This document shows, one piece after another, positions 7,866 to 30,953 of a stretch of 36,542 nt of DNA; the first letter of the stretch is position 1; each line of letters starts with the position of its first letter. The position numbers and the translations under genes were made by a program. This DNA is from Bdellovibrio sp. (lineage in GTDB: Bacteria > Bdellovibrionota > Bdellovibrionia > Bdellovibrionales > Bdellovibrionaceae): NCBI GenBank assembly GCA_025359945.1, contig JANYDD010000004.1:1-36542 (forward strand), read 5' to 3'. The notes under the pieces were generated by a model that made no database searches, was not told the DNA's origin, and saw only the letters and a program-made list of their open reading frames with translations.

Positions 7866-9089
7866 GTGAAAAAAATTAAAGTTTCCAATCCCGTTGTCGA
7901 AATGGACGGCGATGAAATGACCCGAGTAATTTGGGCGTTTATTAAACAAAAATTAATTCTTCCCTATTTAGACGTAGATATTAAGTATTTTGATTTAGGA
8001 ATTGAAAACCGGGACAAAACTGAAGACCGTGTTACCGTTGAATCGGCGGAAGCCACAAAAAAATTTCAAGTGGGAATCAAGTGCGCCACTATCACTCCGG
8101 ATGAAAATCGAGTGAAAGAATTTAAACTAAAAAAAATGTGGAAGTCTCCGAACGGGACGATCAGAAATATTTTGGACGGTACCGTTTTTCGAGAACCGAT
8201 CTTGTGTAAAAACGTCCCTCGATTAATTCCCAACTGGACCCACCCAATTGTTGTGGGTCGGCATGCTTTTGGTGATCAATACCGAGCTACTGACACCAAG
8301 ATTACGACATCGGGTAAGCTAACTATGACCTTTACCCCGCAACAGGGCGCACCTCAAACTTGGGAAGTGTTTGATTATGATTCTCAGGGTGGAGTGGCCA
8401 TGGCCATGTACAATACAACAAAATCTATAGAAGGTTTTGCGCGCAGCTGTTTTAACTTTGCGCTGATGAAAAAGTGGCCGCTTTATTTTTCAAGTAAGAA
8501 CACGATTTTAAAAGCTTACGACGGACACTTTAAAGATATTTTTCAAAAACTTTATGACAATGATTACGCCGGTAAATTTAAAGAAGCGGGAATCACCTAC
8601 GAACATCGTTTGATCGATGACATGGTAGCCAGTGCTTTGAAAATGCACGGTGAGTTTATTTGGGCCTGCAAGAACTACGACGGCGACGTGCAAAGCGATA
8701 TCGTGGCGCAAGGTTTCGGATCCTTGGGACTAATGACTAGCGTTTTAATTACTCCTGATGGCAAAGTGATGGAATCCGAGGCCGCGCATGGAACCGTGAC
8801 CAGGCATTATCGCCAGCACCAGAAGGGCGAGAGAACTTCGACAAACCCAATAGCTTCGATCTTTGCATGGACAAGGGGTTTAAGTTTCCGAGCTGATTTA
8901 GATCAGAACAAAGAATTAAAGAATTTTGCGGAAACTCTTGAGCGAGTTTGTATCGAAACAGTCGAGAGCGGAAAGATGACCAAAGATCTGGCTTTTTGTG
9001 TGCACGGGGAAAAAGTGACCGATAAAGACTATCTTTTCACCGAAGACTTTCTGTCGGCCATCGATACCAACCTGAAAAAATCGTTCTAA
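7866..9089 (+). CDS. icd: NADP-dependent isocitrate dehydrogenase, eukaryotic-type
   Basis: Oxidative decarboxylation of isocitrate to 2-oxoglutarate with NADP+ in the TCA cycle (cytoplasm). The start is GTG at 7866 with an AGGGGGA ribosome site at 7853-7859. The 407-residue length and motifs match the homodimeric subfamily II found in eukaryotes and some bacteria rather than the E. coli type: [11 protein letters not shown] near the N-terminus, [19 protein letters not shown] (substrate loop, about residues 94-112), and [20 protein letters not shown] (about 312-331), which holds the NADP-binding Arg/His residues. It follows actF by 10 bases, so it is likely co-transcribed with the respiratory complex. 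Confidence 0.95.
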
Positions 9090-9189
9090 GTCCAACGAGC
9101 AGTCAGTCTAACTTGGAACTTCTAAATAGCTCTAAGGTCATAGAGGAATTGAGCATAGGCTAAAACCAAATGCTCAAACTAAATTCTCA

Positions 9190-9228
9190 GACCAAAAGCG
9201 CTGACCAAAAGCGCAGACTAAAAGCCGA
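9190..9228. repeat. 13-bp tandem repeat, three copies
   Basis: Three head-to-tail 13-base units: GACCAAAAGCGCT (9190-9202), GACCAAAAGCGCA (9203-9215) and GACTAAAAGCCGA (9216-9228). The first two differ by one base. A related core, GACCAAAAGGCCGA, occurs in the direct repeat near 25630-25673. Function unknown; slipped-strand duplication is the simplest origin. Confidence 0.75.
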
Positions 9229-9453
9229 TCTGAGCTAGTAAGCCTCCGGCGCGGCTTATGCGGCGGTAATTTATTCTTTGACGGGTCGCGAATTTATATT
9301 TACGGTCTGAATATGGTTTGTAAATCAGCTTTTATAGCCCCGTCTATTATTTCCTTTTAATGATTTTCATTTTTTCTAATCCTCTTATTTCTTGGCCTAT
9401 TTTCAAAAAGTACACTTCCTCAAAGTCCTTTCTGAAGTTATTTATTCGAAAGA

Positions 9454-9507
9454 TCCCTTTTCAAATTACCATTCAAAGGGACTTATTGGCAAATTTCACT
9501 TTGCCAA
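9454..9507 (+). promoter_or_regulatory. Two hairpins in the probable thrS leader
   Basis: Two neighbouring stem-loops about 100-150 bases before thrS. The first has 7-bp arms TCCCTTT (9454-9460) and AAAGGGA (9475-9481) with a 14-base loop. The second has perfect 8-bp arms TTGGCAAA (9486-9493) and TTTGCCAA (9500-9507) with a 6-base loop. Neither is followed by a U-tract, so these are not simple terminators. In E. coli, thrS represses its own translation through a tRNA-like leader; a similar role here is only an inference. Confidence 0.4.
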
Positions 9508-9607
9508 AGTGGCTACCAAAATTATTTGCTCTAAATTTGCCTTTACCATTTTCACTTCGAGTTGACCCCATAAATTATTTTTCATTTATTCGATCTTCAA
9601 TGGCATC

Positions 9608-11566
9608 ATGGCAACAATAGAAATCATACTTCCGGATCAATCGATCAAAAGTTTTGACCACGAACCCACGGCTTTGGAAGTGGCGCAATCGATTGGCTCC
9701 AGATTGGCGCAAGATACCCTGGGTGTGCGAATTAACGGCCAACCTGAAATTCAGGATTTGCGCCGGCCGTTGGCGCACAGAAGTAAGATCGAACTGATCA
9801 CCACAAAAAGTGCAGACGCCAACGAAGTGATCCGGCATTCGGCGGCGCATATTTTAGCTCAGGCGGTACAAGCTTTGTGGCCTGAAGTTAAAGTGACCAT
9901 CGGACCGGTGATTCAAGATGGATTTTTCTACGATTTTGATTCACCTAGAAATTTTTCTGAAGAAGACTTTGAAAAAATTGAAAAGAAAATGCGCGAAATT
10001 ATTCATGCCAATTACCCCTTGGTTAGGGAAGAATGGCCCAAAGAAAAAGCTATCGAAACATTCTCAAAATTAGGCGAGCGTTTTAAAGTTGAAATTATCC
10101 GCGACCTCAATGAACCCGTGGTCAGTATTTATCATCAAGGCCCTTGGTTTGATCTGTGTCGGGGCCCACACGTGCAATCGACCGGTCAAGTGAAAGCAGT
10201 CAAGGTTCTTTCGGTCGCCGGCGCTTATTGGCGCGGTAACGAAAAAAATCCCATGCTGCAGAGGATTTACGCCACCGCTTTTCGCGATCCCAAAGAACTT
10301 GAACTGCACCTGAAAAATCTTGAAGAGGCCAAAAAAAGAGACCACCGGAAATTGGGCAAAGAATTGGGCCTGTTTCATTTTCATGAACTGTCGCCTGGGT
10401 CGCCGTTTTTCACAGGCAAGGGCACGGTTATCTACAACGAACTGCAGTCGTTTTTGCGCGAGCTTTACCGAAAATTTAATTACCAAGAAGTGATCACTCC
10501 GCAAATTTTTGACACCCAGTTATTTCAAACCTCAGGTCATCTTGAGAACTATCGCGAAAATATGTACTTCACCAAAATCGACGAGCGAGATTTTTCTGTA
10601 AAGCCCATGAATTGCCCCGGCCATTGCGTTTTGTATTCTCAAGATTGGCATTCGTACCGTGATTTGCCTTTGCGGATGGCCGATTTTGGACGTTTGCATC
10701 GCTTTGAAAAAAGCGGGGCCATGCACGGGCTGACCCGTGTTCGCACTTTTTGCCAGGATGACGGACATATTTTTTGCACTCAAGATCAGGTCGAAGTGGA
10801 AATTTCAAATTTTTTAGAGTTGTTGCATTTGGTGTATAAAACTCTGGGAATGAACGAATATAAAGTCTTTTTATCGACCCGGCCTGAAAAGAGAATGGGT
10901 TCGGACAGCCTATGGGATCAGGCGGAATCAGCGCTTAAAAAGGCCTCGGAAAAAAACAATATTCCCGTACACCTGAACGAAGGGGATGGCGCTTTTTATG
11001 GACCCAAGCTGGACGTGATGTTTGTCGACGCGATTCGCAGGTCGTGGCAATTGGGGACCTTGCAACTGGATCTTAATTTGCCCGAGCGATTTAATTTAAA
11101 ATATGTCGGCGAAGATAATACGGAACATCGCCCGGTCATGCTTCATCGGGCGATTTTAGGAAGCTTAGAGCGTTTTATCGGGGTCTATTTAGAACATACG
11201 GGCGGGCATTTGCCCTTTTGGCTGCACCCGGTTCAAATTAAAATACTGATCGTCACCGATCGGGCCCTGGAAATGGGTCAGCGACTTCAAAGTCACTGGA
11301 AAGCTTTGGGATTTAGGGTGGAATTGGATCTTCGCAACGAGAAATTGAACTTTAAAATCCGCGAAGCTCAACTAGAAAAAATTCCTTATATGGTGATTTT
11401 AGGTGACAAGGAAGTCGAGCAAAAACAAATCTCTGTTCGGCACCGTAGTGGCCAGAATTTTAATTTTTTAAGTATAGAATCCGTGGTTCAGAAATGGACC
11501 CAAGAAAAAGAACATCGACTGCTAGAGTCTTTGTTTACTAACCCAAACCAGGAGGTTTCCCATTAA
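9608..11566 (+). CDS. thrS: Threonine-tRNA ligase
   Basis: Charges tRNA-Thr with threonine in the cytoplasm. The 652-residue product has the full domain set: TGS domain (about 1-62), editing domain with HSAAH (about 77-81) and the far HGPW-type region, class II catalytic core (about 245-535) with zinc ligands in MNCPGHC, in the DDGH segment and in MLHRAILGS, and a C-terminal anticodon-binding domain (about 540-640) ending in the GDKEVEQ region. No clear Shine-Dalgarno sequence precedes the ATG, which is odd for such a well-expressed gene and fits control through the structured leader. It starts the thrS-infC-rpmI-rplT group and overlaps infC. Confidence 0.97.
   Translation: MATIEIILPDQSIKSFDHEPTALEVAQSIGSRLAQDTLGVRINGQPEIQDLRRPLAHRSKIELITTKSADANEVIRHSAAHILAQAVQALWPEVKVTIGPVIQDGFFYDFDSPRNFSEEDFEKIEKKMREIIHANYPLVREEWPKEKAIETFSKLGERFKVEIIRDLNEPVVSIYHQGPWFDLCRGPHVQSTGQVKAVKVLSVAGAYWRGNEKNPMLQRIYATAFRDPKELELHLKNLEEAKKRDHRKLGKELGLFHFHELSPGSPFFTGKGTVIYNELQSFLRELYRKFNYQEVITPQIFDTQLFQTSGHLENYRENMYFTKIDERDFSVKPMNCPGHCVLYSQDWHSYRDLPLRMADFGRLHRFEKSGAMHGLTRVRTFCQDDGHIFCTQDQVEVEISNFLELLHLVYKTLGMNEYKVFLSTRPEKRMGSDSLWDQAESALKKASEKNNIPVHLNEGDGAFYGPKLDVMFVDAIRRSWQLGTLQLDLNLPERFNLKYVGEDNTEHRPVMLHRAILGSLERFIGVYLEHTGGHLPFWLHPVQIKILIVTDRALEMGQRLQSHWKALGFRVELDLRNEKLNFKIREAQLEKIPYMVILGDKEVEQKQISVRHRSGQNFNFLSIESVVQKWTQEKEHRLLESLFTNPNQEVSH
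11550..11556 (+). promoter_or_regulatory. Shine-Dalgarno sequence of infC
   Basis: AGGAGGT lies within the last codons of thrS, five bases before ATT at 11562. It is one of the strongest ribosome sites in the window and is what fixes the AUU start of infC. Confidence 0.8.
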
Positions 11567-16476: not shown

Positions 16477-16500
16477 TGATTGAGCCAAACGGAGCAAATG

Positions 16501-17469
16501 ATGAGCGAGTTATTTTTCGAAGACAGCGCCCCCGCCAATATTGCTTTAATCAAATACATGGGAAAAACCGATGCCAGCGGAAATGGACCGGCCAATTCTT
16601 CTTTTTCTTATGTGCTAGAGTCTTTAAGAACATTCGTGAGCTTGGAATTTAGGCCGGAGGCAAAAGAAGATTCGTGGTTGCCTTTGCAGCAGACCGAAAG
16701 TGGAATTTCTTTAATGCCGATTCAATTGTCTGAATCAGGGCAAGCGCGATTTTTAAAACATCTGCAGTTTTTAAAAGATCAATTTAAGTTTGCAGGATCT
16801 TTTTTGGTTCGATCTGGGAATTCTTTTCCATCGGATTGCGGATTGGCTTCATCGGCATCTAGCTTTGCGGCCTTAACTAAAACAGCTGTTCGGACATTCT
16901 CAGAAATGGGACTGCAAGCCAAGGTGGGGACTGCCCAGTTAGCGCGATTGTCTCAAGCTGGGTCGGGGTCATCGTGTCGATCGGTGACGGGGCCCTGGGT
17001 TTTATGGACCCGGGAAGGTATTCAAGCGGTTGAAACTCCCTATCCGAAACTTCACCATTTGGTTATTTTAGTCGAGAATAAAAAAAAGGAAGTTTCATCC
17101 AGCGAAGCCCATCGACGAGTTCCTACAAGCTTGCTTTTTCTTGGCCGCCCGGAAAGGGCCGAGGTAAGATTGCGGCAACTGCTAACGGCGTTGGATCAGC
17201 AAAATTGGCGAAATGCATTTGAGATTTGTTGGACCGAATTTTGGGATATGCATGGGCTGTTTGAAACCGCCAGTCCGCCTTTTCGATATTTAAGTTCTGG
17301 GTCACTTCAAGCCCTTGAAATTTTAACTGACAAATGGAAAGCGGACCAAGATGGCCCCTTGGTCACCATGGATGCTGGCGCGAATATCCATCTATTGTTT
17401 CGCCCTGATCAGGAACCACTTTTAACTGAGTACAAAAAGATTTTTGACGGCCAAGTGCTGGTCCCCTAG
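16501..17469 (+). CDS. mvaD: Diphosphomevalonate decarboxylase
   Basis: ATP-dependent decarboxylation of mevalonate diphosphate to IPP. The 322-residue GHMP-family product shows APANIALIKYMGK (about 8-20), the phosphate loop CGLASSASSFAAL (about 113-125), GSGSSCRSVTGPW (about 151-163) and the catalytic Asp in TMDAGANIH (about 287-295). The usual IKYWGK has Met for Trp, and MDAGPN reads MDAGAN; both are mild changes. GGAG at 16491-16494 points to the ATG at 16501 (or 16498); an in-frame TTG at 16480 is less likely. It is separated from the upstream kinase by the repeat array, so it may have its own promoter. Confidence 0.93.
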   Translation: MSELFFEDSAPANIALIKYMGKTDASGNGPANSSFSYVLESLRTFVSLEFRPEAKEDSWLPLQQTESGISLMPIQLSESGQARFLKHLQFLKDQFKFAGSFLVRSGNSFPSDCGLASSASSFAALTKTAVRTFSEMGLQAKVGTAQLARLSQAGSGSSCRSVTGPWVLWTREGIQAVETPYPKLHHLVILVENKKKEVSSSEAHRRVPTSLLFLGRPERAEVRLRQLLTALDQQNWRNAFEICWTEFWDMHGLFETASPPFRYLSSGSLQALEILTDKWKADQDGPLVTMDAGANIHLLFRPDQEPLLTEYKKIFDGQVLVP

Positions 17470-17545
17470 TGTTTTAGCGCGGGGACATCGCATAAAAGTC
17501 ATTTTATAACTTGTTGGAAAAGTTAATTTTTTGTTTATTGGTTTA

Positions 17546-18427
17546 ATGAACTTTGAAATTCACGTCCCCGGCAAATGGATTCTATGTGGTGAGCACGCGG
17601 TTTTAAGGGGATTTCCGGCATTGGTTTTCCCTTTAGCCAGTCGAAGTTTAAACTTCTCATTTGTTTCAATTGCGGGTTCAAAACAATTAAAATTAATTCT
17701 ATCTGGCGAGCATGGCCAAGATTTGTCGATTTTATTTTGGGGTGTTTTAGAACGAGCGTGTGAACTTCGAAACGTCCGCAGGTCAGATCTAGAGGGCGAA
17801 ATTAGTATCGCGTCGTCTCTACCTGTGGGTGCTGGCCTTGGTGCTTCGGCAGCTTTATGTGTTGCCGTTGGCAGATGGTTTGAAAGTCGGGGATTCGTCC
17901 CATCGTCCCAGCTTGCAGAGTTCTCAAGGATTTTAGAAAATATTTTTCATGGTGAAAGCTCGGGCGTGGATATCGCGGTTGTGCTAAGCCAGCTTCCTTT
18001 GCGATTTGTGCGCCAAGAAACACCACAGATTTTCAAACCGCAATGGCAGCCGAAATGGTTTATTTCTTATTCTGGGCAAAGAGGCGTCACGATGGAATGT
18101 GTGAACAAAGTTAAAAAGTTATTTTTGGAAAATCCGACTTTAGGCAAAAAGTTAGACTTGCAAATGGGGCAATCAGAGCAACTAGCTGAGAAGGCTTTAT
18201 CTTCGAATGTGGAAACTGGAATGAGGTTCCTGATTGAATCGATTCAATTGGCTGGCTCTTGTTTTGAAGGTTGGGGTTTGACGGCAGGGGCTTTGCAAAA
18301 TCATATGGATGATTTGGTAAAAAGGGGAGCTCTGGCCGTGAAGCCTACGGGTTCTGGTGCTGGTGGATACGTTTTAAGTGTCTGGCTGCAGGACCCGCCT
18401 ACTGATTTGGGATTGATACCTTGTTAA
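17546..18427 (+). CDS. mvk: Mevalonate kinase
   Basis: Phosphorylates mevalonate to 5-phosphomevalonate. The 293-residue GHMP kinase begins at the ATG at 17546 (an in-frame TTG at 17531 is less likely). Motif 1 is PGKWILCGEHAVLRG (about 8-22), motif 2 the ATP loop VGAGLGASAALCVA (about 94-107), the substrate region HGESSGVD (about 134-141) has the conserved Ser/Asp, and motif 3 is KPTGSGAGGY (about 266-275). The match to mevalonate kinase is clearer than for the kinase at 15357. The last four bases overlap the end of a convergent minus-strand ORF, and no terminator separates them. Confidence 0.88.
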   Translation: MNFEIHVPGKWILCGEHAVLRGFPALVFPLASRSLNFSFVSIAGSKQLKLILSGEHGQDLSILFWGVLERACELRNVRRSDLEGEISIASSLPVGAGLGASAALCVAVGRWFESRGFVPSSQLAEFSRILENIFHGESSGVDIAVVLSQLPLRFVRQETPQIFKPQWQPKWFISYSGQRGVTMECVNKVKKLFLENPTLGKKLDLQMGQSEQLAEKALSSNVETGMRFLIESIQLAGSCFEGWGLTAGALQNHMDDLVKRGALAVKPTGSGAGGYVLSVWLQDPPTDLGLIPC

Positions 18428-18699
18428 GCCGATTTTTTAAGTTTTGCGTAACGCTTTCGCGCGCTGATGACGTATTCCTTGCCATGAAAAAAAGCATGTT
18501 CCGCAACCTGAATAACGTTCTTTATCTTGAGCAACGACGGCGCGCTTGCCCACGAAACCAAACGATTGAAGGGACGATCAATCCAAAGCGATAGCGAGCG
18601 AATCTGTAGGTGGCCCGAAACCTCGATGGAAGATTTCTTAAGGTCTTCAAGTAGGCCAGTTTCTGTAAAAAAAATGTTCCGGATTTGAACTGGATTCAT
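18424..18699 (-). CDS. Small protein of unknown function
   Basis: 91-residue ORF that I do not recognise. It is basic at the C-terminus (ARKRYAKLKKSA) and has no membrane segment or signal peptide. It lies 42 bases after the GDPD-like gene on the same strand, so it could be the last gene of the glycan cluster, and overlaps the end of mvk by four bases on the other strand. No clear ribosome site precedes the ATG. The composition (DLKKSS, WIDRPFNRLVSW, HAFFHGKEYVI) looks protein-like rather than random, but expression is uncertain. Confidence 0.45.
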   Translation of the reverse strand: MNPVQIRNIFFTETGLLEDLKKSSIEVSGHLQIRSLSLWIDRPFNRLVSWASAPSLLKIKNVIQVAEHAFFHGKEYVISARKRYAKLKKSA

Positions 18700-18741
18700 T
18701 CAATTTTTCGAGCAGGTTTTGTAAAGAACGGGTGAAGGAAA

Positions 18742-19335
18742 CTACTTTGACAACCAATCTGCTGGCGATTTAGTGCAGATGGCGTGAACTTGGGATTTTA
18801 ATTCTAAGAAGGGCGAACCACTTTCTAAAGTTTTTCCCTGCAGCTCGGGACTGACCAAACAAATTTTAAAAGATTTGTTCAATCTTTGGATTTGCAAAAG
18901 ATCGGGTGGAAGTCCAAAAAAACAATCGGCCCACAGCCAATGACATCGCCCTTGAAAACCTAAAACAAAATCTAAGTTTTCAAATTGAGAATATCGAACT
19001 GCAAAATTCTTAATTCCTTTTTCGGACCACTGAACCATTGTCGGAATCGTCGTATCTAAGAAAAAAAAGTTCGCGATTTTAAATTTTCTTAACAATTCCA
19101 GGCAAACTGGCTCTAGACCATCTTCTTTTGTATTTAAAATTAAAGGTCCAGTAAATTTTTTAATGGCGTATTTTTCTAACCACACCTCAAAGTCTGGTCC
19201 GGTTGCCCAGGCATCGTGAGCTAAATGAATTTTTCCTTTTTTCGAAAAGTCGGAACGTAAGTCAATCTCGACACCCTGAAATCCAGCTTCATCCAAACTT
19301 TCTAAAGTATTACAGCGATGTTTGACGATCATCAT
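18742..19335 (-). CDS. Compact GDPD-like (glycerophosphodiester phosphodiesterase fold) protein
   Basis: 197-residue soluble protein resembling glycerophosphodiester phosphodiesterases, but shorter. The key active-site text is kept in reduced form: KHRCNT near the N-terminus (normally HRG...ENT), GVEIDLR with the acidic pair, and LAHD for the second His. Further text (GPLILNTKEDG, NFFFLDTTIP, ICLVSPELQGK) resembles a GDPD-like family that, from memory, occurs in capsule and surface-glycan loci. Its substrate is not known. The ATG at 19335 overlaps the GT2 stop (ATGATGA) and has an AAAGGAAAAG ribosome site, so the GTG at 19359 is not used. Confidence 0.75.
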   Translation of the reverse strand: MMIVKHRCNTLESLDEAGFQGVEIDLRSDFSKKGKIHLAHDAWATGPDFEVWLEKYAIKKFTGPLILNTKEDGLEPVCLELLRKFKIANFFFLDTTIPTMVQWSEKGIKNFAVRYSQFENLDFVLGFQGRCHWLWADCFFGLPPDLLQIQRLNKSFKICLVSPELQGKTLESGSPFLELKSQVHAICTKSPADWLSK

Positions 19336-20057
19336 TGCTTTTCCTTTCGTAATCTCCACATGTAGGCGATCATACCTAAAATTGTTTTATATCTTCCCAG
19401 AAAAGTCGAGGCCCAGTTTGATGTTCCGAATTTTCTTGGTGGAAAAAGCACTTCGATCTCACTAATTTTAAAATGATTTTTGCCGGCTTGATAAAGCATG
19501 TAAAGATCGAATGCAAAATTCCATGGTGGTTGAATCATTTTTTTCAAAAAACTTTGATGAAAAACTTTGGGCTGAGCATTGATTTCGTGAAAACGAACGT
19601 TCAAAATAATCCACGCCAAAGTTTCGAAAACTTGCGAAACAAAAGCATCTTTCGGATCCCGCCCAACGCGAACGCCTTTCACAAAAGTTTTTTGTGGGTC
19701 CGCCGATTTTTTAATAACTTGAAAAGCGCGAAAGGCATCGGCGGGATCGGTCTGTTCGTCCGCATGGGACCAACCCACAAAAGGGGCCTGACAAGTGCTA
19801 AGTCCCGAAAAAAGTCCAAATCCATAACCTTGATTGACCGGGACCGGGACAATTCTAAACCATGCCCCCAGTTCGGTTTTTGAAAGTTCATGCATTCGTT
19901 GAAGCGAATCATCTTTGCTTCCGTTTTCGACCAACACTAGTTTGAATTGGTCCGGCGTTAATCCCGATTTTTCTGCTTCCATGGAAGCTCGGGTCACAAT
20001 TGAATGCAAACTTTTCGATTCATTGTAGCAGGGCAAGACCAATTCAAATTCAAGCAT
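19332..20057 (-). CDS. Family 2 glycosyltransferase (dolichyl-phosphate-mannose-synthase-like)
   Basis: 241-residue inverting GT-A glycosyltransferase. From the ATG at 20057 it opens with FELVLPCYNES (about 3-13), then VLVENGSKDDS (about 41-51), the NQGYGFGLFSGL region and the metal-binding stretch GWSHADEQTDP (about 95-105, with Asp for the DXD-type site). A C-terminal basic segment (FPPRKFGTSNW) resembles the acceptor region of polyprenyl-phosphate transferases. There is no clear transmembrane anchor. The ATG overlaps the stop of the nucleotidyltransferase gene by eight bases (ATGCTTGA), so translation is coupled. The sugar and acceptor are unknown. Confidence 0.88.
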   Translation of the reverse strand: MLEFELVLPCYNESKSLHSIVTRASMEAEKSGLTPDQFKLVLVENGSKDDSLQRMHELSKTELGAWFRIVPVPVNQGYGFGLFSGLSTCQAPFVGWSHADEQTDPADAFRAFQVIKKSADPQKTFVKGVRVGRDPKDAFVSQVFETLAWIILNVRFHEINAQPKVFHQSFLKKMIQPPWNFAFDLYMLYQAGKNHFKISEIEVLFPPRKFGTSNWASTFLGRYKTILGMIAYMWRLRKEKQ

Positions 20058-21675
20058 TGTTTTCTCCAACCAGCGAGCTTTCCAAAACGCCTTCAAATCG
20101 TTGTCGCGGGGCTAATTTATGTCCGCCGAAAACTTCTTCCCAGTAAAGCGTGGAAGCCAAGGAATCTGGATCCCCCCAGCCCATATACCCCGACAAAGGA
20201 ACTCGACGGACGATTAAATTTTTTTCTAAATACAGGTTGAGAACCGAGTCCAAATAAATCTCATTATTAATTCGAAGGTCTCTTTGCACTAACTCTTGGA
20301 TCAGTTCCATCAATTGGCGGACCGAACGAAACCAAAAGGTGCCGACCAAAAGATTTTCAGTTCGGGCGTTTGTCGTCGTTGGCTTTTTCAGAGAAACTGA
20401 TTCAGCATGGGAAAATGGATCTGCTTCGTTAACGACGGGTACAAAGGAAAATGATTTTGGCGATTGCACTACCGAAGGAAAACCCTGAATGGTCATCACG
20501 CCCGCATCCGCTTTTAAAGCCAGAAAATGCTGCCAATCTTTGGGTTTTAAAACAATCCCGTGATCGCATGCCGAAATAAAAACTGATTTGTCAGGGTGTA
20601 ATCTCTTTAACCCCTCAAAAGTAGTCAGAGCCTGACCCTCCGGAGTGGATTTTAAATACACGTATTCAATTCCATCAGCAGGCTTAAGAAATTTTCGGTG
20701 TTCGTCAGTTGTGACACATACGGTTTTGGGGCTGTCAGGCAATGATCGAATTGCTTTTTCGTACATCGGCAATCCTTGTAAATTTAAAAACGGCTTGGGA
20801 GTTTGAAAAATATTTTTAAATCGCGATCCAAAGCCGGCCATTGGAATCAACACTTGTTCAGTGGTCGAACAGCCACTCTTGCAAAAATCTTTGGAATACT
20901 TTAAGTGGCTTTTAAAAGTTTTTTCCCAGTACTCAAATTCTTGCAGGTCTTCGGGTGTTCCCCATTGGTAAAAATACGGAATTTCGTAAATAAGCGCTTT
21001 TGATTTTTGTTTTCGCAGCAAGGCTTCTTGCGCCAAGCTTAAGTAGAATTCATTTTGGCCAGCCGTTAGATTTAGTTTTTTCTGATGATCAATGGCACTA
21101 AAAAGTGTGTCCAGATTTTTGAAATAATAGGCTCCAGCGGAAGCAAATTCGTTTTCGCGATTATCGGTGAAACAACTTTTTTCTTTGATCTCGACAATTT
21201 GTTGGTGTTGAACTTTTGAATAAGCATACATCTGCGGATGAGTGTAATGAGCATGAAACCCACGGTAGGAAATCACCGCCAAATCGGGATCTGCATTTTG
21301 CACAAATTCTTCAAAGTGCCTAGCATCCCAAGAAAGCCCATAGTCGCAGTAAGAAACCAAAACCCCATCGTTTGGATTTTTTGCAGAGCTTTTGATTTCG
21401 TCGCGTGCCAACGCCACAGACTGCGAAGGCCCCTGACCTGTGTGCGCCTGAAATATTTGGCGGCCATGGGGAACTAAGTGATTCAAAAGTTCCGCCAGTC
21501 CTGAATGCCTGTGGTCCTGGTTAATAATAAAAGTATATTCCCAATCCAAGGGCATTGTTTTCAACAAGCGTTCGATGATTGGAACGCCATTCACCCGAAC
21601 CAATGGTTTGGGATCAGCGTAACCAGCTTTTTTAAAGCGGGATCCCTTTCCCGTCATCGGAATAACAATATGCAT
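20050..21675 (-). CDS. Tandem double sugar nucleotidyltransferase
   Basis: 541-residue protein made of two NTP_transferase domains in a row. Domain 1 (about 1-260) starts with IVIPMTGKGSRFKKAGY and PKPLVRVNGVPIIE; domain 2 (about 270-520) repeats the pattern with VLIPMAGFGSRFK and PKPFLNLQGLPMYE. Both keep the Gly-rich nucleotide loop, the signature Lys-Pro-hydrophobic motif, and end in a GTP/GDP-type motif (QWGTPEDLQEF and GWGDPDSLAS). The family makes NDP-sugars or NDP-polyols from a phosphorylated precursor. Which nucleotide and substrate cannot be told. AAGGA precedes the ATG by about nine bases; the upstream GT-C-like gene ends 12 bases earlier. Confidence 0.85.
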   Translation of the reverse strand: MHIVIPMTGKGSRFKKAGYADPKPLVRVNGVPIIERLLKTMPLDWEYTFIINQDHRHSGLAELLNHLVPHGRQIFQAHTGQGPSQSVALARDEIKSSAKNPNDGVLVSYCDYGLSWDARHFEEFVQNADPDLAVISYRGFHAHYTHPQMYAYSKVQHQQIVEIKEKSCFTDNRENEFASAGAYYFKNLDTLFSAIDHQKKLNLTAGQNEFYLSLAQEALLRKQKSKALIYEIPYFYQWGTPEDLQEFEYWEKTFKSHLKYSKDFCKSGCSTTEQVLIPMAGFGSRFKNIFQTPKPFLNLQGLPMYEKAIRSLPDSPKTVCVTTDEHRKFLKPADGIEYVYLKSTPEGQALTTFEGLKRLHPDKSVFISACDHGIVLKPKDWQHFLALKADAGVMTIQGFPSVVQSPKSFSFVPVVNEADPFSHAESVSLKKPTTTNARTENLLVGTFWFRSVRQLMELIQELVQRDLRINNEIYLDSVLNLYLEKNLIVRRVPLSGYMGWGDPDSLASTLYWEEVFGGHKLAPRQRFEGVLESSLVGENNA

Positions 21676-21687
21676 TTCTTTTAATCC

Positions 21688-23358
21688 TTATTTCTTTCGT
21701 GTTTGTTTTTCCCAAAGTTCAAAACCGCACGAATCTTTGTGCGCCAAGCTCCAACGCTGCCCAAGGGGGTCTAAGGCTTGGGTCTGGCCGTTGAACAAAC
21801 GGTAAAACAATTTTGTTTGTTCAATATCTCGTAAATGCATGGCCACTTGGCCGGTATTGCCTGGGCCTTGATTCAAGTAGGTTTGGTAGTAATCTTTTTT
21901 TAACGCGATCCAAGTGGTTGATTCTGAAATTCGGTTTAAGTCCATATCCCAATGGGAAAAGATGGTTTTGTCGTGAAACTGGCGATCATACGGCAAAACA
22001 GGATCGACTAAAATTTGCGCTTCAGGCAAGGCAGCCGCTTGATTTAGAATTTTCTCGACAGCGTGAACTTCCTCAGAACAGCGAACTCGGATGTGGGCTT
22101 GGGTCTCGAAATGGGTTGGCCATAACCCACCAATCTGGGGCGCTAGGCCCAAAAGAATTCCAAAAAACCAGCGAGAACTTTGCAAACGCTGAAAAAAAAA
22201 TCGACCTCTTCGCAGAAATGAAGCTAGAGAATACTTAATTCCGAAATAGGTATTCAAACTTTCGAAAAGTAGAATCCACCAAACCAAAATTCCTTGAGTG
22301 ATAGGAAAAGTGTACCAATGATAAGGCGGATTTAGCTTACGTAGTACTAAGAAAAGAAACGCCAAGGCAACAAACCAAGTAAAAGAAAAAAAAGTTTTCA
22401 GCGGGATGTTGATCTTTCTCACCGGTCCTAACAAGTAAAAAAATAATATTAGCCAGGGAATCCAAAGCAGTTCTAGTTGGAACAATTTGATCCACTCTTT
22501 AAAAAAAGAGAAATGGCCCCAACTGCTGTTTTTATGTTGATCAACCAGGTATTGAATTCCGCCGGGCAAATCCCAAGTTTGCGGCAAACCCAAAACAAAA
22601 TACCCTACGGAAAAAAAAATCAGAAACTGAAAACCGATTTTGGATCTTTTTCGTAAATGCCAGGCAAGAAATAAAAAGCTTGGGATGTAGAACAGAACGG
22701 CCAATTTAGTCGCCGAAGTCACTCCCCACAAAAATGAAAATCTATTTAGGGATTCTTTCCGGCGGTCAGCTAGGAAACGCACCAAGAAAATAAGACTTGC
22801 AGTTAAAAATAAGCAAAACAAAAAATCAGGTTTCGCGGTCAATAGAAGCTCTAGACGGTTTGGGTTCAAGAGGGTCAGTGGCACAAAAAGGTAAGTCATC
22901 AGCAGCGACCAATGAAGTGAATTCAAAAAAAAGGAAGCTAAAATAAATCCCACAAAATAAAGCGAAATGAGATTGAGACTAAGCAACTGATAATGAGTAT
23001 TTTTCTCAAGTGCCTTCCGGTCGTCTAGAGTTTCTTTGGTGATGTCCTTGGTGATGTCCTTGGTGATGGAGTTGGAGGTGGCGCTAAAAAAACGCATCAG
23101 CGATGCTAATTTGTAATATATCGGTCCGTAAATTCGCCAGCCATTGTCGTTAATAAGATTTGTTCTTAGAGTTACCTCGACGGCGGCGCCAGAATCATTG
23201 TCGTTAGCCGAAACCACGGCTAAATCGCTAGTCATTCCAAACAATCGCCCCGAGAATTTTTGATACTGAGTCCACAGCGCGAAAATCAAAACCGCGGCAA
23301 AAATTTTCTCCCATTGAAGATCGCGAATAAAATAGAAAACGGCAGAGCTTGAGCGCAT
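21688..23358 (-). CDS. Polytopic membrane protein, probable GT-C glycosyltransferase
   Basis: 556-residue protein with about ten hydrophobic segments and a long soluble C-terminal tail (about 430-556). The N-terminal layout, a first helix followed by an extracytoplasmic loop with charged/aromatic residues (NGWRIYGPIYYK), and the polytopic middle resemble GT-C enzymes of the ArnT/PMT/Alg type that use lipid-linked sugars. No family signature is firm, so the role is inferred from shape and neighbours. A 12-base repeat encodes ITKD copies in the first loop. The ATG at 23358 is preferred to the in-frame TTG at 23418, which lies in the divergent promoter region. Confidence 0.65.
   Translation of the reverse strand: MRSSSAVFYFIRDLQWEKIFAAVLIFALWTQYQKFSGRLFGMTSDLAVVSANDNDSGAAVEVTLRTNLINDNGWRIYGPIYYKLASLMRFFSATSNSITKDITKDITKETLDDRKALEKNTHYQLLSLNLISLYFVGFILASFFLNSLHWSLLMTYLFVPLTLLNPNRLELLLTAKPDFLFCLFLTASLIFLVRFLADRRKESLNRFSFLWGVTSATKLAVLFYIPSFLFLAWHLRKRSKIGFQFLIFFSVGYFVLGLPQTWDLPGGIQYLVDQHKNSSWGHFSFFKEWIKLFQLELLWIPWLILFFYLLGPVRKINIPLKTFFSFTWFVALAFLFLVLRKLNPPYHWYTFPITQGILVWWILLFESLNTYFGIKYSLASFLRRGRFFFQRLQSSRWFFGILLGLAPQIGGLWPTHFETQAHIRVRCSEEVHAVEKILNQAAALPEAQILVDPVLPYDRQFHDKTIFSHWDMDLNRISESTTWIALKKDYYQTYLNQGPGNTGQVAMHLRDIEQTKLFYRLFNGQTQALDPLGQRWSLAHKDSCGFELWEKQTRKK
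23036..23068 (-). repeat. 12-bp tandem repeat inside the GT-C-like gene
   Basis: TTGGTGATGTCC at 23036-23047 and 23048-23059, then nine matching bases to 23068 (plus-strand reading). On the coding strand it gives repeated Ile-Thr-Lys-Asp in a predicted extracytoplasmic loop. Copy-number change would keep the frame. Confidence 0.8.
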
Positions 23359-23366
23359 CTGTTGGC

Positions 23367-23397
23367 ATGATAAGGGGATGCAGTGAAGATTCGTCAA
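23367..23397 (-). promoter_or_regulatory. Possible promoter of the glycan operon
   Basis: On the minus strand, TTGACG (23397-23392) is followed by TATCAT (23372-23367) with 19-base spacing, slightly long for a sigma-70 promoter. Transcription would begin near the ATG at 23358, giving a nearly leaderless mRNA, in line with the lack of a ribosome site there. A second TTGACA lies at 23418-23413. Confidence 0.25.
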
Positions 23398-23446
23398 GAA
23401 ATTTCCTTGGCTTGTCAATACACGGAATTTTAGCTAACGGTAATTT

Positions 23447-24451
23447 ATGTCTTTGAAAGTCTCTGAATCATTTCCGCCCCAAGAACTTTTCACATTATCT
23501 GAGAATGTCGGCCGTCGGATTCCAGATTGGACTCAAGGAGCCGGCGGCAATATTTCCGTTAAATCGAAAAATAGCCTTTGGATCAAAGCGTCCGGGGAAA
23601 GACTGTCTGATATAGCTGGGCCCGCAGAGCGAAATAGGTTTGCTCGACTGGATTGTGTGAAGTTCGCTCAAGAGTTTCAAATCCTGCAACAAGGAATCGA
23701 CCGAACGAAGATCAAACAGTCTTCAGTGGGCTTCGATCCATCTGGCGGTCTTTTTGAAAAGGAAAAAAAATACTCCGAAATGCTGAAAGTATTTTCAGAC
23801 CCAGAATTTGGTAAGGCTTCTATGGAGACTGCATTTCATATTAAACTACCGCAGAAGTACGTTTTACACTTTCATGCATTGAGCTTTATCCTGATTCACG
23901 AACTCACTTCGGCTGATCCCGCTTTAATGGCTCAAGTTCAAAAACTGCTGCGAGCAAAGTACCAAATTTCTTGCCATTGGGTTGATCTTTTTTTGCCAGG
24001 TTTTCAGCTTTCACTTTTTTTAGAAGTCGGCGCTGGCGATCAGATTTATATTTTAAAAAATCATGGGATCATCTTGGCCTCGGATAGCGAAACAATCCTT
24101 AGTAAATTTGAAGTCTTGGAAAAGGACCTGCTGAAGGAACTTGATGTCGCGTGGGAATTCAATCAGGCGGTACCGGAAAATGTTGGTGGGCCAATAAAAG
24201 TTTTTTTCCCAGATTTTATTATTTTTAAAAATGAAATCAAAAAGCATCTGAAAAATTCGGGTGATAAAAAATATTTTTTTTCACGTCCATCTCCCGAAGC
24301 CACTAAAGAGGAGCGGGGTGCTTTTGAGAACTGGTGGGCGACCCAAAAATTGTTTGCAAGCAACCCGCACTTGGCGGAGCTTTCAATTGATTTTCAACGT
24401 GAGGTTTTGGGACTACCCACGGAAAAAGAAAGATTCAACAAAAGCCGATAA
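23447..24451 (+). CDS. Class II aldolase/adducin-family protein
   Basis: 334-residue soluble protein. The first two thirds are a class II aldolase fold: WTQGAGGNISVK (about 27-38), LWIKASGERLSDI (about 44-56), METAFH with a catalytic-type Glu (about 125-130), HFHA zinc ligands (about 144-147) and LKNHGIIL with the third His (about 203-210). The last ~90 residues are an extension without clear motif. The family cleaves or epimerises phosphorylated sugars; the substrate is unknown. It is divergent from the glycan operon, 88 bases away, and ends at a strong terminator, so it is probably a single-gene unit linked to that pathway. Confidence 0.8.
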   Translation: MSLKVSESFPPQELFTLSENVGRRIPDWTQGAGGNISVKSKNSLWIKASGERLSDIAGPAERNRFARLDCVKFAQEFQILQQGIDRTKIKQSSVGFDPSGGLFEKEKKYSEMLKVFSDPEFGKASMETAFHIKLPQKYVLHFHALSFILIHELTSADPALMAQVQKLLRAKYQISCHWVDLFLPGFQLSLFLEVGAGDQIYILKNHGIILASDSETILSKFEVLEKDLLKELDVAWEFNQAVPENVGGPIKVFFPDFIIFKNEIKKHLKNSGDKKYFFSRPSPEATKEERGAFENWWATQKLFASNPHLAELSIDFQREVLGLPTEKERFNKSR

Positions 24452-24498: not shown

Positions 24499-25383
24499 CT
24501 AATCCCAGTTCTGAGGATCGGCGTGCAAACAAAAGCGATCTTTTTTCATGCAAGATCTGGATGGCACTTTTCCTTCTCCATAAACTTCTTTTAAACTTTG
24601 AAGCACCAGCGAAACTAAATTGCCAAGGTTAATATCGGCGTCGTTTTCGATCGGCTGCACTACCGTTAAAGAAGAAACGCACGAAAACATTCTTCGTTCG
24701 CGCATGTCGGCTTGAGCCTTCAATAAAGAAGAAACATTCGTAAATTCTTGATCATAAAGCTTCCAGGCTAAAACTCGCGAAGACAAATTGTAGGGCGGGG
24801 GTTCCACAGGCTGGAGTTTTTCTTTTGGATTCGATTCAAGCACAGCATTGGCGTTGAACTGATTTAACAGTTTCTCGCAAACATAGCGCCAGTGAATCCG
24901 ATCAGATTCGGCAACAGCTGGCGACCGAGAACCCTCTAAGCACACACTTTTAGTTTCCTTTTCAAAGCTGGCCTCGACGCTATCTCGTTTCAGTGCCGGC
25001 GGTAGAAAAGTTCCTAAAGCAAGCGCTGCCGCCGGCACTCCGCAAACAATGCTAACCCCACAAGCCACGTAGCCTAATGTATCTAAAAAAGGTGCCATTT
25101 CAGAAATCTTTTGAAAATTATCTGTCATACATGACTTGGCTTTATTTTCGCCAATGTATTCTCGGGTAACCGCTAGTTGCTGTGACATTGGCGCCGTTGG
25201 AATCTGAAAATGCCAGGCGTCTAGTTGCTTCTGGAATTCGGCTGTCCTTTGTGTTTGAGCCTTTTGATTTGAATGGTAAATCTCTTCTAACGTAGCACTT
25301 TGGGCCATCGACGAAAAAGCACCCGTCAAAAATAACAAACTGACTAAAAACGAAACCCCTGAATTTAAGTCTAAAACTCTCAT
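24499..25383 (-). CDS. Secreted protein of unknown function
   Basis: 294-residue protein I do not recognise. It has an N-terminal signal peptide (hydrophobic FLVSLLFLTGAF, likely cleavage after SMAQSA) and a second hydrophobic segment (about 103-127, YVACGVSIVCGVPAAALALG). About eight Cys residues are spread through the mature part, including two near the C-terminus (SRSCMKKDRFC), which suggests disulfides in the periplasm or outside. An AAAGGAGGA ribosome site favours the second of two adjacent ATGs (25383). It stands alone between a terminator and a gene-poor stretch. Such proteins are common in predatory Bdellovibrionota, but no role can be assigned. Confidence 0.7.
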   Translation of the reverse strand: MRVLDLNSGVSFLVSLLFLTGAFSSMAQSATLEEIYHSNQKAQTQRTAEFQKQLDAWHFQIPTAPMSQQLAVTREYIGENKAKSCMTDNFQKISEMAPFLDTLGYVACGVSIVCGVPAAALALGTFLPPALKRDSVEASFEKETKSVCLEGSRSPAVAESDRIHWRYVCEKLLNQFNANAVLESNPKEKLQPVEPPPYNLSSRVLAWKLYDQEFTNVSSLLKAQADMRERRMFSCVSSLTVVQPIENDADINLGNLVSLVLQSLKEVYGEGKVPSRSCMKKDRFCLHADPQNWD

Positions 25384-25723
25384 CATTCCTCCTTTGTTAA
25401 TCTTGGAGACCGATCTCTATCACAAAACTACGCAAAACCGCTAACTGAAGTTGAGAGATTGTAAACCTGGTCGGTGCAGTTTGCGGTCCGAAGAATATGT
25501 GCTGAAAGAAGGCGTCACGGATTACTTTAGATTGCCCCCTTTAAAGGAAATCGTTGGCCAGAATCAGAGCCAAAATGCCAATCTCCCCACTCGATAGGAT
25601 CATAGATGAGGCGCCATGATTGAAGAGCTCAAGCGCCCAAAAGGCCGAAACTCAAGGGACCAAAAGGCCGAAAAGAACTTTCTAAAAAATCGATCAATCG
25701 GCCTCAATCCACAGAATAGTTTT
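25384..25723. other. Gene-free interval between the SpoU methyltransferase and the secreted protein
   Basis: 340 bases with stop codons in all frames I checked by eye and no clear RNA gene. The only structure I see is the direct repeat at 25630-25673. It should contain the promoter of the secreted protein and the terminator of the rsmG-spoU pair; neither is clear. Confidence 0.4.
25630..25673. repeat. 21-base direct repeat, two copies, 23-base period
   Basis: Copies at 25630-25650 and 25653-25673 agree at 19 of 21 positions and share CCAAAAGGCCGAAA. The core resembles the 13-bp units at 9190-9228. Confidence 0.7.
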
Positions 25724-27413: not shown

Positions 27414-28466
27414 ATGTCACAAATTAAAGATCCGCACCATAATCTGTCGCAAGCTCTAGAGCAACTTAAAAATCAAGCTCTGGAAAGCTTTCAGAATTCC
27501 ACGCAACGCCAAGAACTTTACGATCAAAAAGTTCGCTTTCTTGGAAAGCAAGGCCTACTTACGGATTTTATGAAAAAGCTTTCAGGCGTTCCCAAAGAAG
27601 AACGGCCAAAGTGGGGTCAATTGCTGAATCAAATCAAGGTTCAGTTGGAAAGTAGGCACGCAGAAGTTGAAACCAAGCTGCAGAAAAAAGAGCTCGATCA
27701 AAAAATTCAAAGTGAAAAAATTGACGTGACCTTGCCATCGGCTGGTGAACCCTTGGGGACGTCTCATCCGGTGACATTGGTCACTCGCGAGTTTTTTCAG
27801 ATTATGTCTAGGCTGGGATATTCTTTAAACATGGGTCCTTGTATCGAGTCCGATCACTATAATTTCCAAGCGTTGAATATTCCGCAGCACCATCCTGCTA
27901 GAGATATGCAGGATACTTTTTTCGTCGATGATAATTTAGTGCTTCGCACGCATACGTCGCCGGTGTGGTCGCGATATTTAGAATCCAATAAGCCGCCGTT
28001 TCGAATTTTGGGGACTGGCCCGGTTTTTAGATGTGACAGTGATATTTCTCATCTGCCGCATTTTCATCAGTTCGAGGCCGCACTTGTGGATCGCAAAGTT
28101 TCGATGAGCGATCTCAAGGGAACAATTAGTTTTGTCGTTCGCGAGTTCTTTGGGCAGGGTCTGCAGACGCGATTTCGCCCAAGCTTTTTTCCCTTCACCG
28201 AGCCCTCTGCCGAAGTCGATTGCACTTGCCCCATTTGCCATGGCAAGGGTTGTAGCCTGTGCAAACAATCTGGTTGGATCGAGATCGGCGGTTGTGGCTT
28301 GATTCATCCAAACGTGTTTTCCGAAGCTAAAGTTTCGTCGGAAGAATGGCAGGGATTTGCTTTTGGATTTGGGATCGAGCGCATGGCCATTATCAAGTAC
28401 GGCATTCCGGATATTCGACTTTTTCCCGAAAACGATTTGCGTTTTTTAACTCAGTTTGGGGCTTAA
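27414..28466 (+). CDS. pheS: Phenylalanine-tRNA ligase alpha subunit
   Basis: Catalytic subunit of the heterotetrameric PheRS. The 350-residue product has an N-terminal coiled-coil tRNA-binding arm (about 1-100), motif 1 region ([15 protein letters not shown]), motif 2 ([17 protein letters not shown], about 204-220) and motif 3 ([14 protein letters not shown], about 321-334). A Cys cluster ([14 protein letters not shown], about 265-278) is a known insertion in a subset of bacterial PheS proteins and may bind zinc. The ATG follows a 49-base AT-rich divergent region shared with rsmG. The stop is directly adjacent to the pheT start. Confidence 0.96.
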
Positions 28467-30953
28467 ATGAAAATTAGTCTTTCTTGGATTCAAGAATTTA
28501 TCGACATTAAAGAATATTTCGAGGCTCCTCAAAAGCTTGCTGATCAATTGACTCAAGCGGGGCTTGAGGTCGAAGAGCTGAAAGATCTTTCGCAGGCTTT
28601 TCGTTTTGTGGTCGTTGGTTTAATTTTAAAAATTGATAAACATCCGCAAGCTGACCGTTTGACGGTCTGCCAGGTTTCTACGACTTCAGGCGCGCAAGGC
28701 GGATTGGTTCATCAAATTGTTTGCGGTGCCACCAATCACAAGGTGGGTGATAAAATTGTTGTTGCGTTGCCCGGAGCCATTTTACCCAACGGGGTGATGA
28801 TTCAAAAATCGATTCTTCGCGGTGTTGAATCCAATGGAATGTTATGCTCGGAAAAAGAACTAGGTTTGGCTGAAACAAGTGCGGGTCTGATGATTTTGGA
28901 TCCAGCCGTCGAGGTTGGAATGCAGGTTGCGGATTTGTTGGGAAAAAACGATATCACTTTTGACTTGAAAGTGACTCCCAACCGGGCGGATGTTTTAAGT
29001 CAGTACGGATTGGCGCGCGAGCTTTCAACACTGCTGAAGAAACCTTTAAAAAAAATTGAACCCGTGCTTGCGTCCGCTCAAACCGCTCAGTCTGCAACGG
29101 CGTCGGTGGTTTCTATTGAGGTACTTCAGGATTCACCGTGCACGCGGTACTCGGCCCGAGTGATCAAAGGTGTACAAATCAAACCATCGCCTCAATGGCT
29201 GCAGCAAAGACTTGAAGCTTGCGGAATGAAACCAATCAACAACGTGGTTGACGCTACCAATTATGTGATGCTGGAGCTTGGGCAACCGCTGCACGCGTTT
29301 GATTTGCAGCAGCTGGCTGGCCCGACAATTCAAGTGAGTCTTGCTGATAATGGCGAAAGTTTTAAAACCTTTGATGGTTCGGATTTAACTCTGAAGGGTT
29401 TTGAATTAGTGATCAAAGACCAAACCAAATCGGTTTGCTTGGCCGGAGTTATCGGCAATCCCAACAGCGGTGTGACCGCCAACACCCAAGATCTTTTGAT
29501 CGAGTCCGCTCACTTTCAGGCCGACAGCGTTCGCAAAACCATGCGAACTCATGGCCTGCAAACAGAATCTGGCTATCGTTTTAGTCGTGGGGTCGATTCG
29601 TCGGGGACTTTGCTAGCGTTAGATCGAGTCACCGAGCTAATTTTAAAAATCGCAGGTGGAGTCGCGTTTTCGCAAGCCTTTGATTTCTATCCGCAGCCCA
29701 AAATTTCAAAACCAGTGGACGTGAATCTTCACAATATCAGTCAGCGTTTAGGCTACACGGCAGAAGAAAAAACATTTGAAGAAGATCTGAAAAATCTTTC
29801 GTGTGAATTTAAGAAAAAAAACGAATTGCACAGCAACTTGTACAGCAACATGTACATTGTGACGCCGCCGTCATTTCGATTTGATCTGGAAAGTGAAATC
29901 GATTTTGTAGAAGAATACGCAAGACTTCGCGGCTATGCGCAGTTTTCTGAAACCTTGCCCGCCATGGTCGAGTCACCTCAGCCGCAGAGTCCGATGTTTT
30001 TATTTTTAGAAAGTCTTCGTGCTCCACTGCAGGCCGCGGGTGCCAGCGAAGCCTGCAATCAGGTCTTTGTTTCTGAAAGTCAAGAGAACCAGATCTTGCC
30101 CAATCTGGCGTACCTTGAAAATTTAAAATTATTATCTTCGGAAAAAGCCGTGAAAATAAAAAATCCATTAAGCGCCGATGGATCTGCCCTGCGCAGGACT
30201 TTACTTTATTCGCTTTTTGAAAACTTGGTTTATCATTCGGCCCAAGGCCAGAATCAGGGCTTTTTATTCGAGGTTGGAAAAGTATTTTCAAAAAACGAAA
30301 GCGTTTACGATGAGCATTGGAATTTAGGGCTTTGTCTGTTTGGCGACCGAGAAAATTTATGGAAAGGAAAAAATCCGCAAGCGCCCTTGTTGATGAAACT
30401 TAAAAAAAGCCTTGAAAATCTGGGTCACCAAGTTCGAAGGCCATTTGAATTAACGCCATGGAGTGATAGTTCAGAAGTTTTTCCATTTTATCATTCGGGA
30501 CAGCTAGGCACTATCCAGTCTGCAGATTTGGGTGTGATCGGAACTTTTGGATCCTTGCACCCGCAGATCCGCGAGAATTTTAAAATTAGGTCCGATGCCG
30601 TCTTTGCCGAAATCCATCTTGAAAAATGGATCAAAGCCCCGGTGAAAAAAATAAAAGTTCAACCTATTTCAAAGTTTCCAATGATCGTTAGGGATTTAGC
30701 GTTAGTGGTGAAGAAGTCGCTGCCGTCAGCCGCAGTAGCTACAGAAATAACAGCCTTGGCAGGCGAAAACTTGAAGGCCGTCGAGGTCTTTGATCTTTAT
30801 CAGGGCGAAAATTTGGCCCCGGGCCAAAAATCTTTAGCATTCCATCTTTATTTTCAAAAGTCGGACGGATCTTTACTTGATGAAGAAATCAACCAGCTGA
30901 TAACCACCATCCAAAAGAAAATGAAAGAAACCCATACTTTTGGAGAAAGATAG
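28467..30953 (+). CDS. pheT: Phenylalanine-tRNA ligase beta subunit
   Basis: Structural and editing subunit of PheRS, 828 residues, close to the bacterial norm. Domain order: N-terminal B1 part, EMAP-type tRNA-binding domain (about 40-155, with PQADRLTVCQV and ESNGMLCSEKELGL), B3/B4 editing domain (about 215-385), B5 helix-turn-helix domain, class II-like core and C-terminal ferredoxin-fold anticodon-binding domain (about 735-828, from SKFPMIVRDLALVV). It starts right at the pheS stop (TAAATG). A 12-base duplication (29830-29853) inserts SNLY/SNMY in the B5-core linker. No terminator separates it from ihfA. Confidence 0.96.
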   Translation: MKISLSWIQEFIDIKEYFEAPQKLADQLTQAGLEVEELKDLSQAFRFVVVGLILKIDKHPQADRLTVCQVSTTSGAQGGLVHQIVCGATNHKVGDKIVVALPGAILPNGVMIQKSILRGVESNGMLCSEKELGLAETSAGLMILDPAVEVGMQVADLLGKNDITFDLKVTPNRADVLSQYGLARELSTLLKKPLKKIEPVLASAQTAQSATASVVSIEVLQDSPCTRYSARVIKGVQIKPSPQWLQQRLEACGMKPINNVVDATNYVMLELGQPLHAFDLQQLAGPTIQVSLADNGESFKTFDGSDLTLKGFELVIKDQTKSVCLAGVIGNPNSGVTANTQDLLIESAHFQADSVRKTMRTHGLQTESGYRFSRGVDSSGTLLALDRVTELILKIAGGVAFSQAFDFYPQPKISKPVDVNLHNISQRLGYTAEEKTFEEDLKNLSCEFKKKNELHSNLYSNMYIVTPPSFRFDLESEIDFVEEYARLRGYAQFSETLPAMVESPQPQSPMFLFLESLRAPLQAAGASEACNQVFVSESQENQILPNLAYLENLKLLSSEKAVKIKNPLSADGSALRRTLLYSLFENLVYHSAQGQNQGFLFEVGKVFSKNESVYDEHWNLGLCLFGDRENLWKGKNPQAPLLMKLKKSLENLGHQVRRPFELTPWSDSSEVFPFYHSGQLGTIQSADLGVIGTFGSLHPQIRENFKIRSDAVFAEIHLEKWIKAPVKKIKVQPISKFPMIVRDLALVVKKSLPSAAVATEITALAGENLKAVEVFDLYQGENLAPGQKSLAFHLYFQKSDGSLLDEEINQLITTIQKKMKETHTFGER
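29830..29853 (+). repeat. 12-bp tandem duplication within pheT
   Basis: ACAGCAACTTGT (29830-29841) is followed at once by ACAGCAACATGT (29842-29853), one mismatch. In frame it encodes repeated Ser-Asn-x-Tyr, in a variable region of the protein. Confidence 0.75.

Follow-up and report, generated by a model that had tools for sequence, protein, structure and literature searches.

In haloarchaea, a ribulose-1,5-bisphosphate (RuBP) phosphatase and then a FucA-type class II aldolase act serially on RuBP and ribulose-1-phosphate, and this proven pair belongs to the non-carboxylating pentose bisphosphate pathway (PMC9700705). Other known systems come close to further parts of the gene set reported here: the phosphoribulokinase (PRK) of the Calvin cycle (PRK07429; PDB 6kev and 6hzk), the NDP-heptose route (HddA, GmhB and HddC), the GtrA/GtrB/GT-C systems of the serotype-conversion type, and the glycerophosphodiester phosphodiesterases (GDPDs; 2pz0 and 2o55). 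In this study we analysed a stretch of 36,542 nucleotides of a Bdellovibrio sp. genome (contig JANYDD010000004.1, our C43, taken whole and called the window in what follows), in which five genes at 18742-24451 encode a GDPD-like protein, a GT2 glycosyltransferase, a double nucleotidyltransferase (NTase), a polytopic membrane protein and a class II aldolase.

Our analysis suggests that these genes belong to a conserved surface-glycan module which makes and delivers a pentulose-phosphate-derived glycosyl unit, a reading to which we give an even chance. Its parts differ in strength: the identity as a surface-glycan module is well supported, polyprenyl phosphate as the carrier is moderately supported, and a pentulose phosphate as the precursor is less supported. 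A literature search, which fell short of most subscription journals, found no paper on this gene combination, and the view that the module is uncharacterised, and apparently unstudied, is supported; its proteins are mostly of known superfamilies and their NCBI annotation is generic.

Co-occurrence of the module families

The module comprises six families, namely the GDPD-like protein, the NTase pair, the GT2, the FucA-type aldolase, a HAD phosphatase and MPRK, the last being a GT-C-like membrane domain fused to a phosphoribulokinase; GtrA is often present in addition. Genomes scanned with an alignment of the GDPD-like family gave more than 500 relatives across phyla, and the module was found in Pseudomonadota, Bacteroidota, Bdellovibrionota, Bacillota, Melainabacteria and Acidobacteriota. 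We searched six-frame translations with profiles and counted 48 loci in which the GDPD-like gene is flanked by 8 kb or more in each direction: the NTase and the GT2 lie beside it in 45 each, MPRK and the aldolase in 43 each and the HAD phosphatase in 42, and all five partner families surround it in 40. Among 60 relatives, the NTase occurs in every genome that has the GDPD-like gene, mostly within a few kb. In a sample of 369 genomes of the phylum, the NTase is present in 34 of the 35 genomes with a GDPD-like gene (a count that leaves out two weak partial matches), and the GDPD-like gene is found in all 20 genomes with a module-type MPRK (p = 6e-24, uncorrected for relatedness); these MPRKs come from eight families of the phylum. 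In further collections, the GDPD-like gene is adjacent in 3/3 plasmid records with a full-length MPRK and the full set is present in 2/2 contigs of a viral collection with a GDPD-like gene. The association of these genes is thus confirmed to be far above chance.

In the genome of the window itself, MPRK and the HAD phosphatase stand apart from the other families. MPRK is encoded at C90:18932-20944 (E = 3.7e-276), next to genes for ManC (mannose-1-phosphate guanylyltransferase), a GDP-mannose dehydratase, a methyltransferase and an ABC-2 exporter pair, and it clusters with the module MPRKs of Bdellovibrionota relatives with a support of 100/100. The HAD phosphatase is encoded at C39:68477-69130 (E = 1.9e-64), where it adjoins another NTase and is near a bacterial sugar transferase. 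Because the window is an entire contig and both genes are well inside theirs, we regard this as dispersal and not as an assembly break; and since all families are kept though scattered, it can be argued that they serve one function. An earlier note on this DNA had proposed the five window genes as a candidate surface-glycan module, to be checked by a neighbourhood search for co-occurrence of the five families. All five open reading frames (ORFs) are found at 18742-24451 and the neighbourhood search bears out the co-occurrence, across phyla and in polysaccharide loci, but the set was incomplete as listed, for MPRK and the HAD phosphatase are regular members which here lie on two other contigs.

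Proteins with proposed roles in activation and delivery

Four of the five window genes are on the minus strand: those of the GDPD-like protein (18742-19335), the GT2 (19332-20057), the NTase (20050-21675) and the membrane protein (21688-23358). The two overlaps given in the earlier note are there, one of 8 bases between the ATG of the GT2 gene at 20057 and the NTase stop (20050), and one of 4 bases (ATGA) between the ATG of the GDPD-like gene at 19335 and the GT2 stop (19332), while 12 bases separate the stop of the membrane protein gene (21688) from the NTase start. As for the nature of the proteins, the same note was right to see a GDPD-like enzyme, at the level of the fold, and a double NTase; its GT2 transferase stands and can be refined, and the membrane protein, which it counted as a member of the set, does adjoin the module in relatives but turns out to be optional and exchangeable. 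The results are as follows.

The GDPD-like protein has about 197 residues from the ATG at 19335, or 205 if an upstream GTG at 19359 is used. Its AlphaFold2 model (pLDDT 94.4) places it in the GDPD superfamily, with the activity as a prediction only, since the top 19 PDB matches in Foldseek are all GDPDs (E = 2e-6 to 2.5e-4; query TM-score 0.63-0.76). The PDB sequence search with this protein gave nothing usable, so that only the fold search matched, and no Pfam family, PF03009 included, matched the window protein, one distant family member reaching 14.4 bits, under the cut-off of 23.6. Compared with 2pz0 and 2o55, the TIM-barrel, the catalytic His pair and the Glu/Asp metal pair are shared, and H14, E31, D33 and H48, which correspond to these His, Glu and Asp residues, are identical in 51 sequences. 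Unlike those enzymes, the protein is about 30-70 residues shorter, is missed by PF03009 and has, for the third metal Glu of the LEIK-type motif, an invariant N76 in LNTK, a position equated by motif and not by superposition. A phosphodiester-containing modification is possible, with the modelled GDPD-like fold as its sole basis.

The NTase has 541 residues, and both halves match NTP_transf_3 (3.4e-19) and keep the GxGxR..PK, CD and K motifs of sugar-1-phosphate NTases; its relatives in PDB are 4evw, GlmU and HddC-type enzymes. The GT2 matches PF00535 (2.2e-10) and has no hydrophobic segment or membrane helix of its own. Its profile finds DPM synthase (9.7e-17), ArnC (3.3e-16) and the GtrB-type sll0501 (1.7e-13) as best PDB matches, which points to a polyprenyl-phosphate glycosyltransferase of the DPMS/ArnC/GtrB type and hence to a lipid-carried glycosyl unit.

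The membrane protein is polytopic by hydropathy and may be a GT-C transferase, to judge from a weak profile similarity to the membrane domain of MPRK; Pfam gave no match on it, and its AlphaFold2 model, from an alignment of 2 sequences only, has a pLDDT of 40. Its start is probably the ATG at 23358, because a homologue begins there. Homologues adjoin the module in two genomes (G017 and G026), yet the family occurs in 15 of the 369 genomes and only 4 of these 15 have the module, and the membrane-protein slot is filled elsewhere by several families without sequence relation. This arrangement resembles the GtrA/GtrB/GT-C systems in its DPMS/GtrB-like GT2, in the GtrA gene that lies between the NTase and the GT2 in many loci, and in a variable polytopic membrane protein at the place of the acceptor-specific transferase. 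The module differs from them in adding the donor-making double NTase, the kinase, the HAD phosphatase, the aldolase and the GDPD-like enzyme.

Predicted ketose phosphate enzymes, the proposed route and its rivals

The kinase domain of MPRK appears to be of the phosphoribulokinase type. It scores E = 2e-57 to 6e-53 against phosphoribulokinases and 9e-28 against uridine kinase, and reaches 7.5e-53 with the NCBIfam family PRK07429, but with 179.8 bits, under the cut-off of 236. The MPRK of the window's genome matches PRK residue by residue in D-x-Y-H-x-x-x-R, Y-x-H and QRD..RGHS and keeps the P-loop and the ribulose-5-phosphate site motifs, whose residues are read here in the roles that they have in PRK. 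An identity as uridine kinase is rejected on the PRK scores and motifs. While the P-loop and ribulose-5-phosphate site motifs are those of the Calvin-cycle enzyme, the kinase of MPRK follows a GT-C-like membrane domain in one fused protein, as its C-terminal part; that membrane domain itself matches GPI mannosyltransferase 1 at 3e-4, and the context of the kinase is glycan and not carbon fixation.

Regarding the HAD phosphatase, we tested the proteins of 9 other kinase-bearing modules, and RuBP 5-phosphatase was the top NCBIfam family in 7 (1e-41 to 1e-53, 141-182 bits) and the second in 2; in modules without the kinase the HAD is a different one, of phosphoglucomutase type. The aldolase (23447-24451, plus strand), which bears a C-terminal extension, matches PF00596 at 7.2e-8. 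Its PDB relatives include 3m4r (4.9e-24) and the L-fuculose-1-phosphate aldolases (1.5e-9), the closest characterised ones, and the catalytic Glu E127 and the Zn-ligand His residues H141, H143 and H206, equated by motif, are invariant, in agreement with the earlier assignment to class II. A RuBP 5-phosphatase-like HAD with a FucA-type class II aldolase is the likeness to the haloarchaeal pathway. Here, in contrast, RuBP would stem from phosphoribulokinase and not from ribose-1,5-bisphosphate isomerase, and the genes are bacterial and lie in surface-glycan loci with NTases and a glycosyltransferase.

Gene content, families, the GDPD-like fold, motifs, co-occurrence and glycan context are what is observed, and every reaction, together with its order, we infer. 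The phosphoribulokinase domain of MPRK would phosphorylate ribulose-5-phosphate at C1 to RuBP, from which the HAD phosphatase would take off the 5-phosphate to give ribulose-1-phosphate, and the FucA-type aldolase would act on this ketose-1-phosphate by cleavage, reformation or epimerisation. One NTase might then activate the 1-phosphate, the DPMS/ArnC-type GT2 would load the unit onto polyprenyl phosphate, to be flipped (by GtrA where present), and GT-C-type membrane proteins would link it to a polysaccharide at the cell surface. The GDPD-like enzyme and the second NTase may handle a phosphodiester or a second activated unit.

Several results weigh against this route. If the aldolase cleaves ribulose-1-phosphate, it would destroy the substrate proposed for the NTase. 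The HADs of the modules reach 79-182 bits, below the curated RuBP-phosphatase cut-off of 330 (NF053830), and the HAD of the window's genome has RuBP 5-phosphatase only in third place (64.5 bits, 1.1e-17). It and MPRK are outside the window. GtrA (PF04138) was not found in that genome, in a search whose controls were positive, which also sets it apart from the GtrA/GtrB/GT-C systems. Moreover, there are other loci with the GDPD-like gene, HAD and NTase but without kinase and aldolase, and in L044/L073 and L139/L097 the kinase, HAD and aldolase are replaced by Zn-dehydrogenases, a relative of ribulose-phosphate 3-epimerase and a TIM-barrel protein. Because such variants replace or omit the kinase and aldolase, the core is the GDPD-like protein with the NTase, to which an exchangeable sugar feed is added; the pentulose feed is one version and not an invariant core, and both main feeds use ketose phosphate enzymes. 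In a further locus (L141), a single protein encoded at 8353-9744 is a HAD-NTase fusion and adjoins the GDPD-like gene.

The variant loci also bear on an explanation close to that of the earlier note, by which the module would provide a pentitol phosphate or ketose phosphate in CDP-activated form and the glycan would receive it as a teichoic-like substituent in phosphodiester linkage, which the GDPD-like protein trims or forms. The Zn-dehydrogenases and the 3-epimerase, in place of kinase and aldolase, are what a polyol phosphate needs, and the GDPD fold fits it, as does the second half of the NTase, which has an IspD-like score. On the other hand, the sugar-1-phosphate motifs are kept in both NTase halves, polyprenyl-phosphate glycosyltransferases are the closest relatives of the GT2, next to which GtrA is often encoded, and no TagF/TagB-type polymerase was seen in the set. 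We also looked for a TarJ-type dehydrogenase with a TarI-type cytidylyltransferase, and the window locus encodes no dehydrogenase; only the variant loci L044 and L139 have Zn-dehydrogenases, under best names other than TarJ. We consider this explanation rather unlikely.

Also of low probability in our view is that the logic of the NDP-heptose route, in which 1-kinase, bisphosphate phosphatase and NTase lead to a nucleotide sugar, is applied to a sugar phosphate other than ribulose-5-phosphate. The N-terminal NTase half does resemble heptose-pathway NTases (5xhw and 6jq8) and the HAD is only distantly like RuBP phosphatase, yet the ribulose-5-phosphate site motifs of the kinase are retained and the type of HAD tracks the presence of the kinase. 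Compared with HddA, GmhB and HddC, the kinase of the module is of an unrelated family and its substrate would be of pentulose type. A catabolic role, in which kinase, phosphatase and aldolase would constitute a pentose bisphosphate shunt yielding dihydroxyacetone phosphate and glycolaldehyde and only happen to adjoin glycan genes, is quite improbable. In its favour, the phosphatase-aldolase pair of haloarchaea is catabolic (PMC9700705); against it, the membrane domain to which the kinase is fused here is related to GPI mannosyltransferase 1, and in different phyla the set is still accompanied by NTase, GT2 and GDPD-like genes. Finally, although GT2, NTase and aldolase families are generally known to be common, a chance neighbourhood of ordinary glycan genes is refuted by the near-obligate co-occurrence, even where the genes are dispersed in a genome, and has a negligible probability.

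Surroundings, plasmid copies and implications

On the left of the cluster, a plus-strand gene run ends with two mevalonate pathway enzymes (16480-18427), a diphosphomevalonate decarboxylase and a mevalonate kinase-like gene, on the opposite strand to the cluster and ending 315 bp from it; both belong to the supply of isoprenoid (polyprenyl carrier), and the stretch 18428-18741 is outside the module genes. The membrane protein and aldolase genes diverge from an intergenic region of 88 bp (23359-23446), which had been taken for a short divergent promoter region; the divergent gap is there, but no consensus promoter was found in it. Beyond the aldolase follow a minus-strand ORF of 295 residues (24499-25386), without family and without homologue in the compared loci, and right-hand ORFs that include putative phenylalanyl-tRNA synthetase chains (27414-30953). 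With the mevalonate genes on one side and the putative synthetase on the other, the cluster is not within a large polysaccharide locus here.

In E. coli from human stool, an IncR plasmid (L143, NZ_CP145712.1, 6022-14984) carries a complete module including GtrA, with an IS26 transposase nearby, and a near-identical plasmid copy is present in a bullfrog isolate. Among 5,426 E. coli genomes, 2 were found to have the module, both plasmid-borne, in a scan that detects close copies only, as it requires a DNA identity of about 85%. Divergent GDPD-like and HAD pairs are found on plasmids of P. aeruginosa and Scandinavium (L145 and L146), together with WavE-family and ABC transporter genes, and two IMG/VR contigs (L148 and L149) carry the full module; their DNA could be viral, or it could come from a host and be misassigned.

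To our knowledge, no donor route has been described for xylulose residues in bacterial glycans. Tentatively, the pentulose-phosphate reading may be extended to a Rubisco-free, non-autotrophic use of RuBP that leads to a nucleotide-activated pentulose (for example NDP-ribulose or NDP-xylulose), carried by polyprenyl to surface polysaccharides, in which the GDPD-derived enzyme would contribute a novel step on a phosphodiester. Bacterial glycans with xylulose are known but rare, one producer being reported and four others listed, and E. coli O95 is among the listed producers of pentulose glycans (PMC8707391). Close copies of the module are in so few E. coli genomes that some pentulose glycans may arise without it. 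If the reading is true, RuBP chemistry, usually that of carbon fixation, would be tied to the assembly of cell-surface glycans in many phyla, and the module, which travels on plasmids, would provide functions for families that so far bear generic names and, for glycan residues of a rare class, a set of genes that can be tested.

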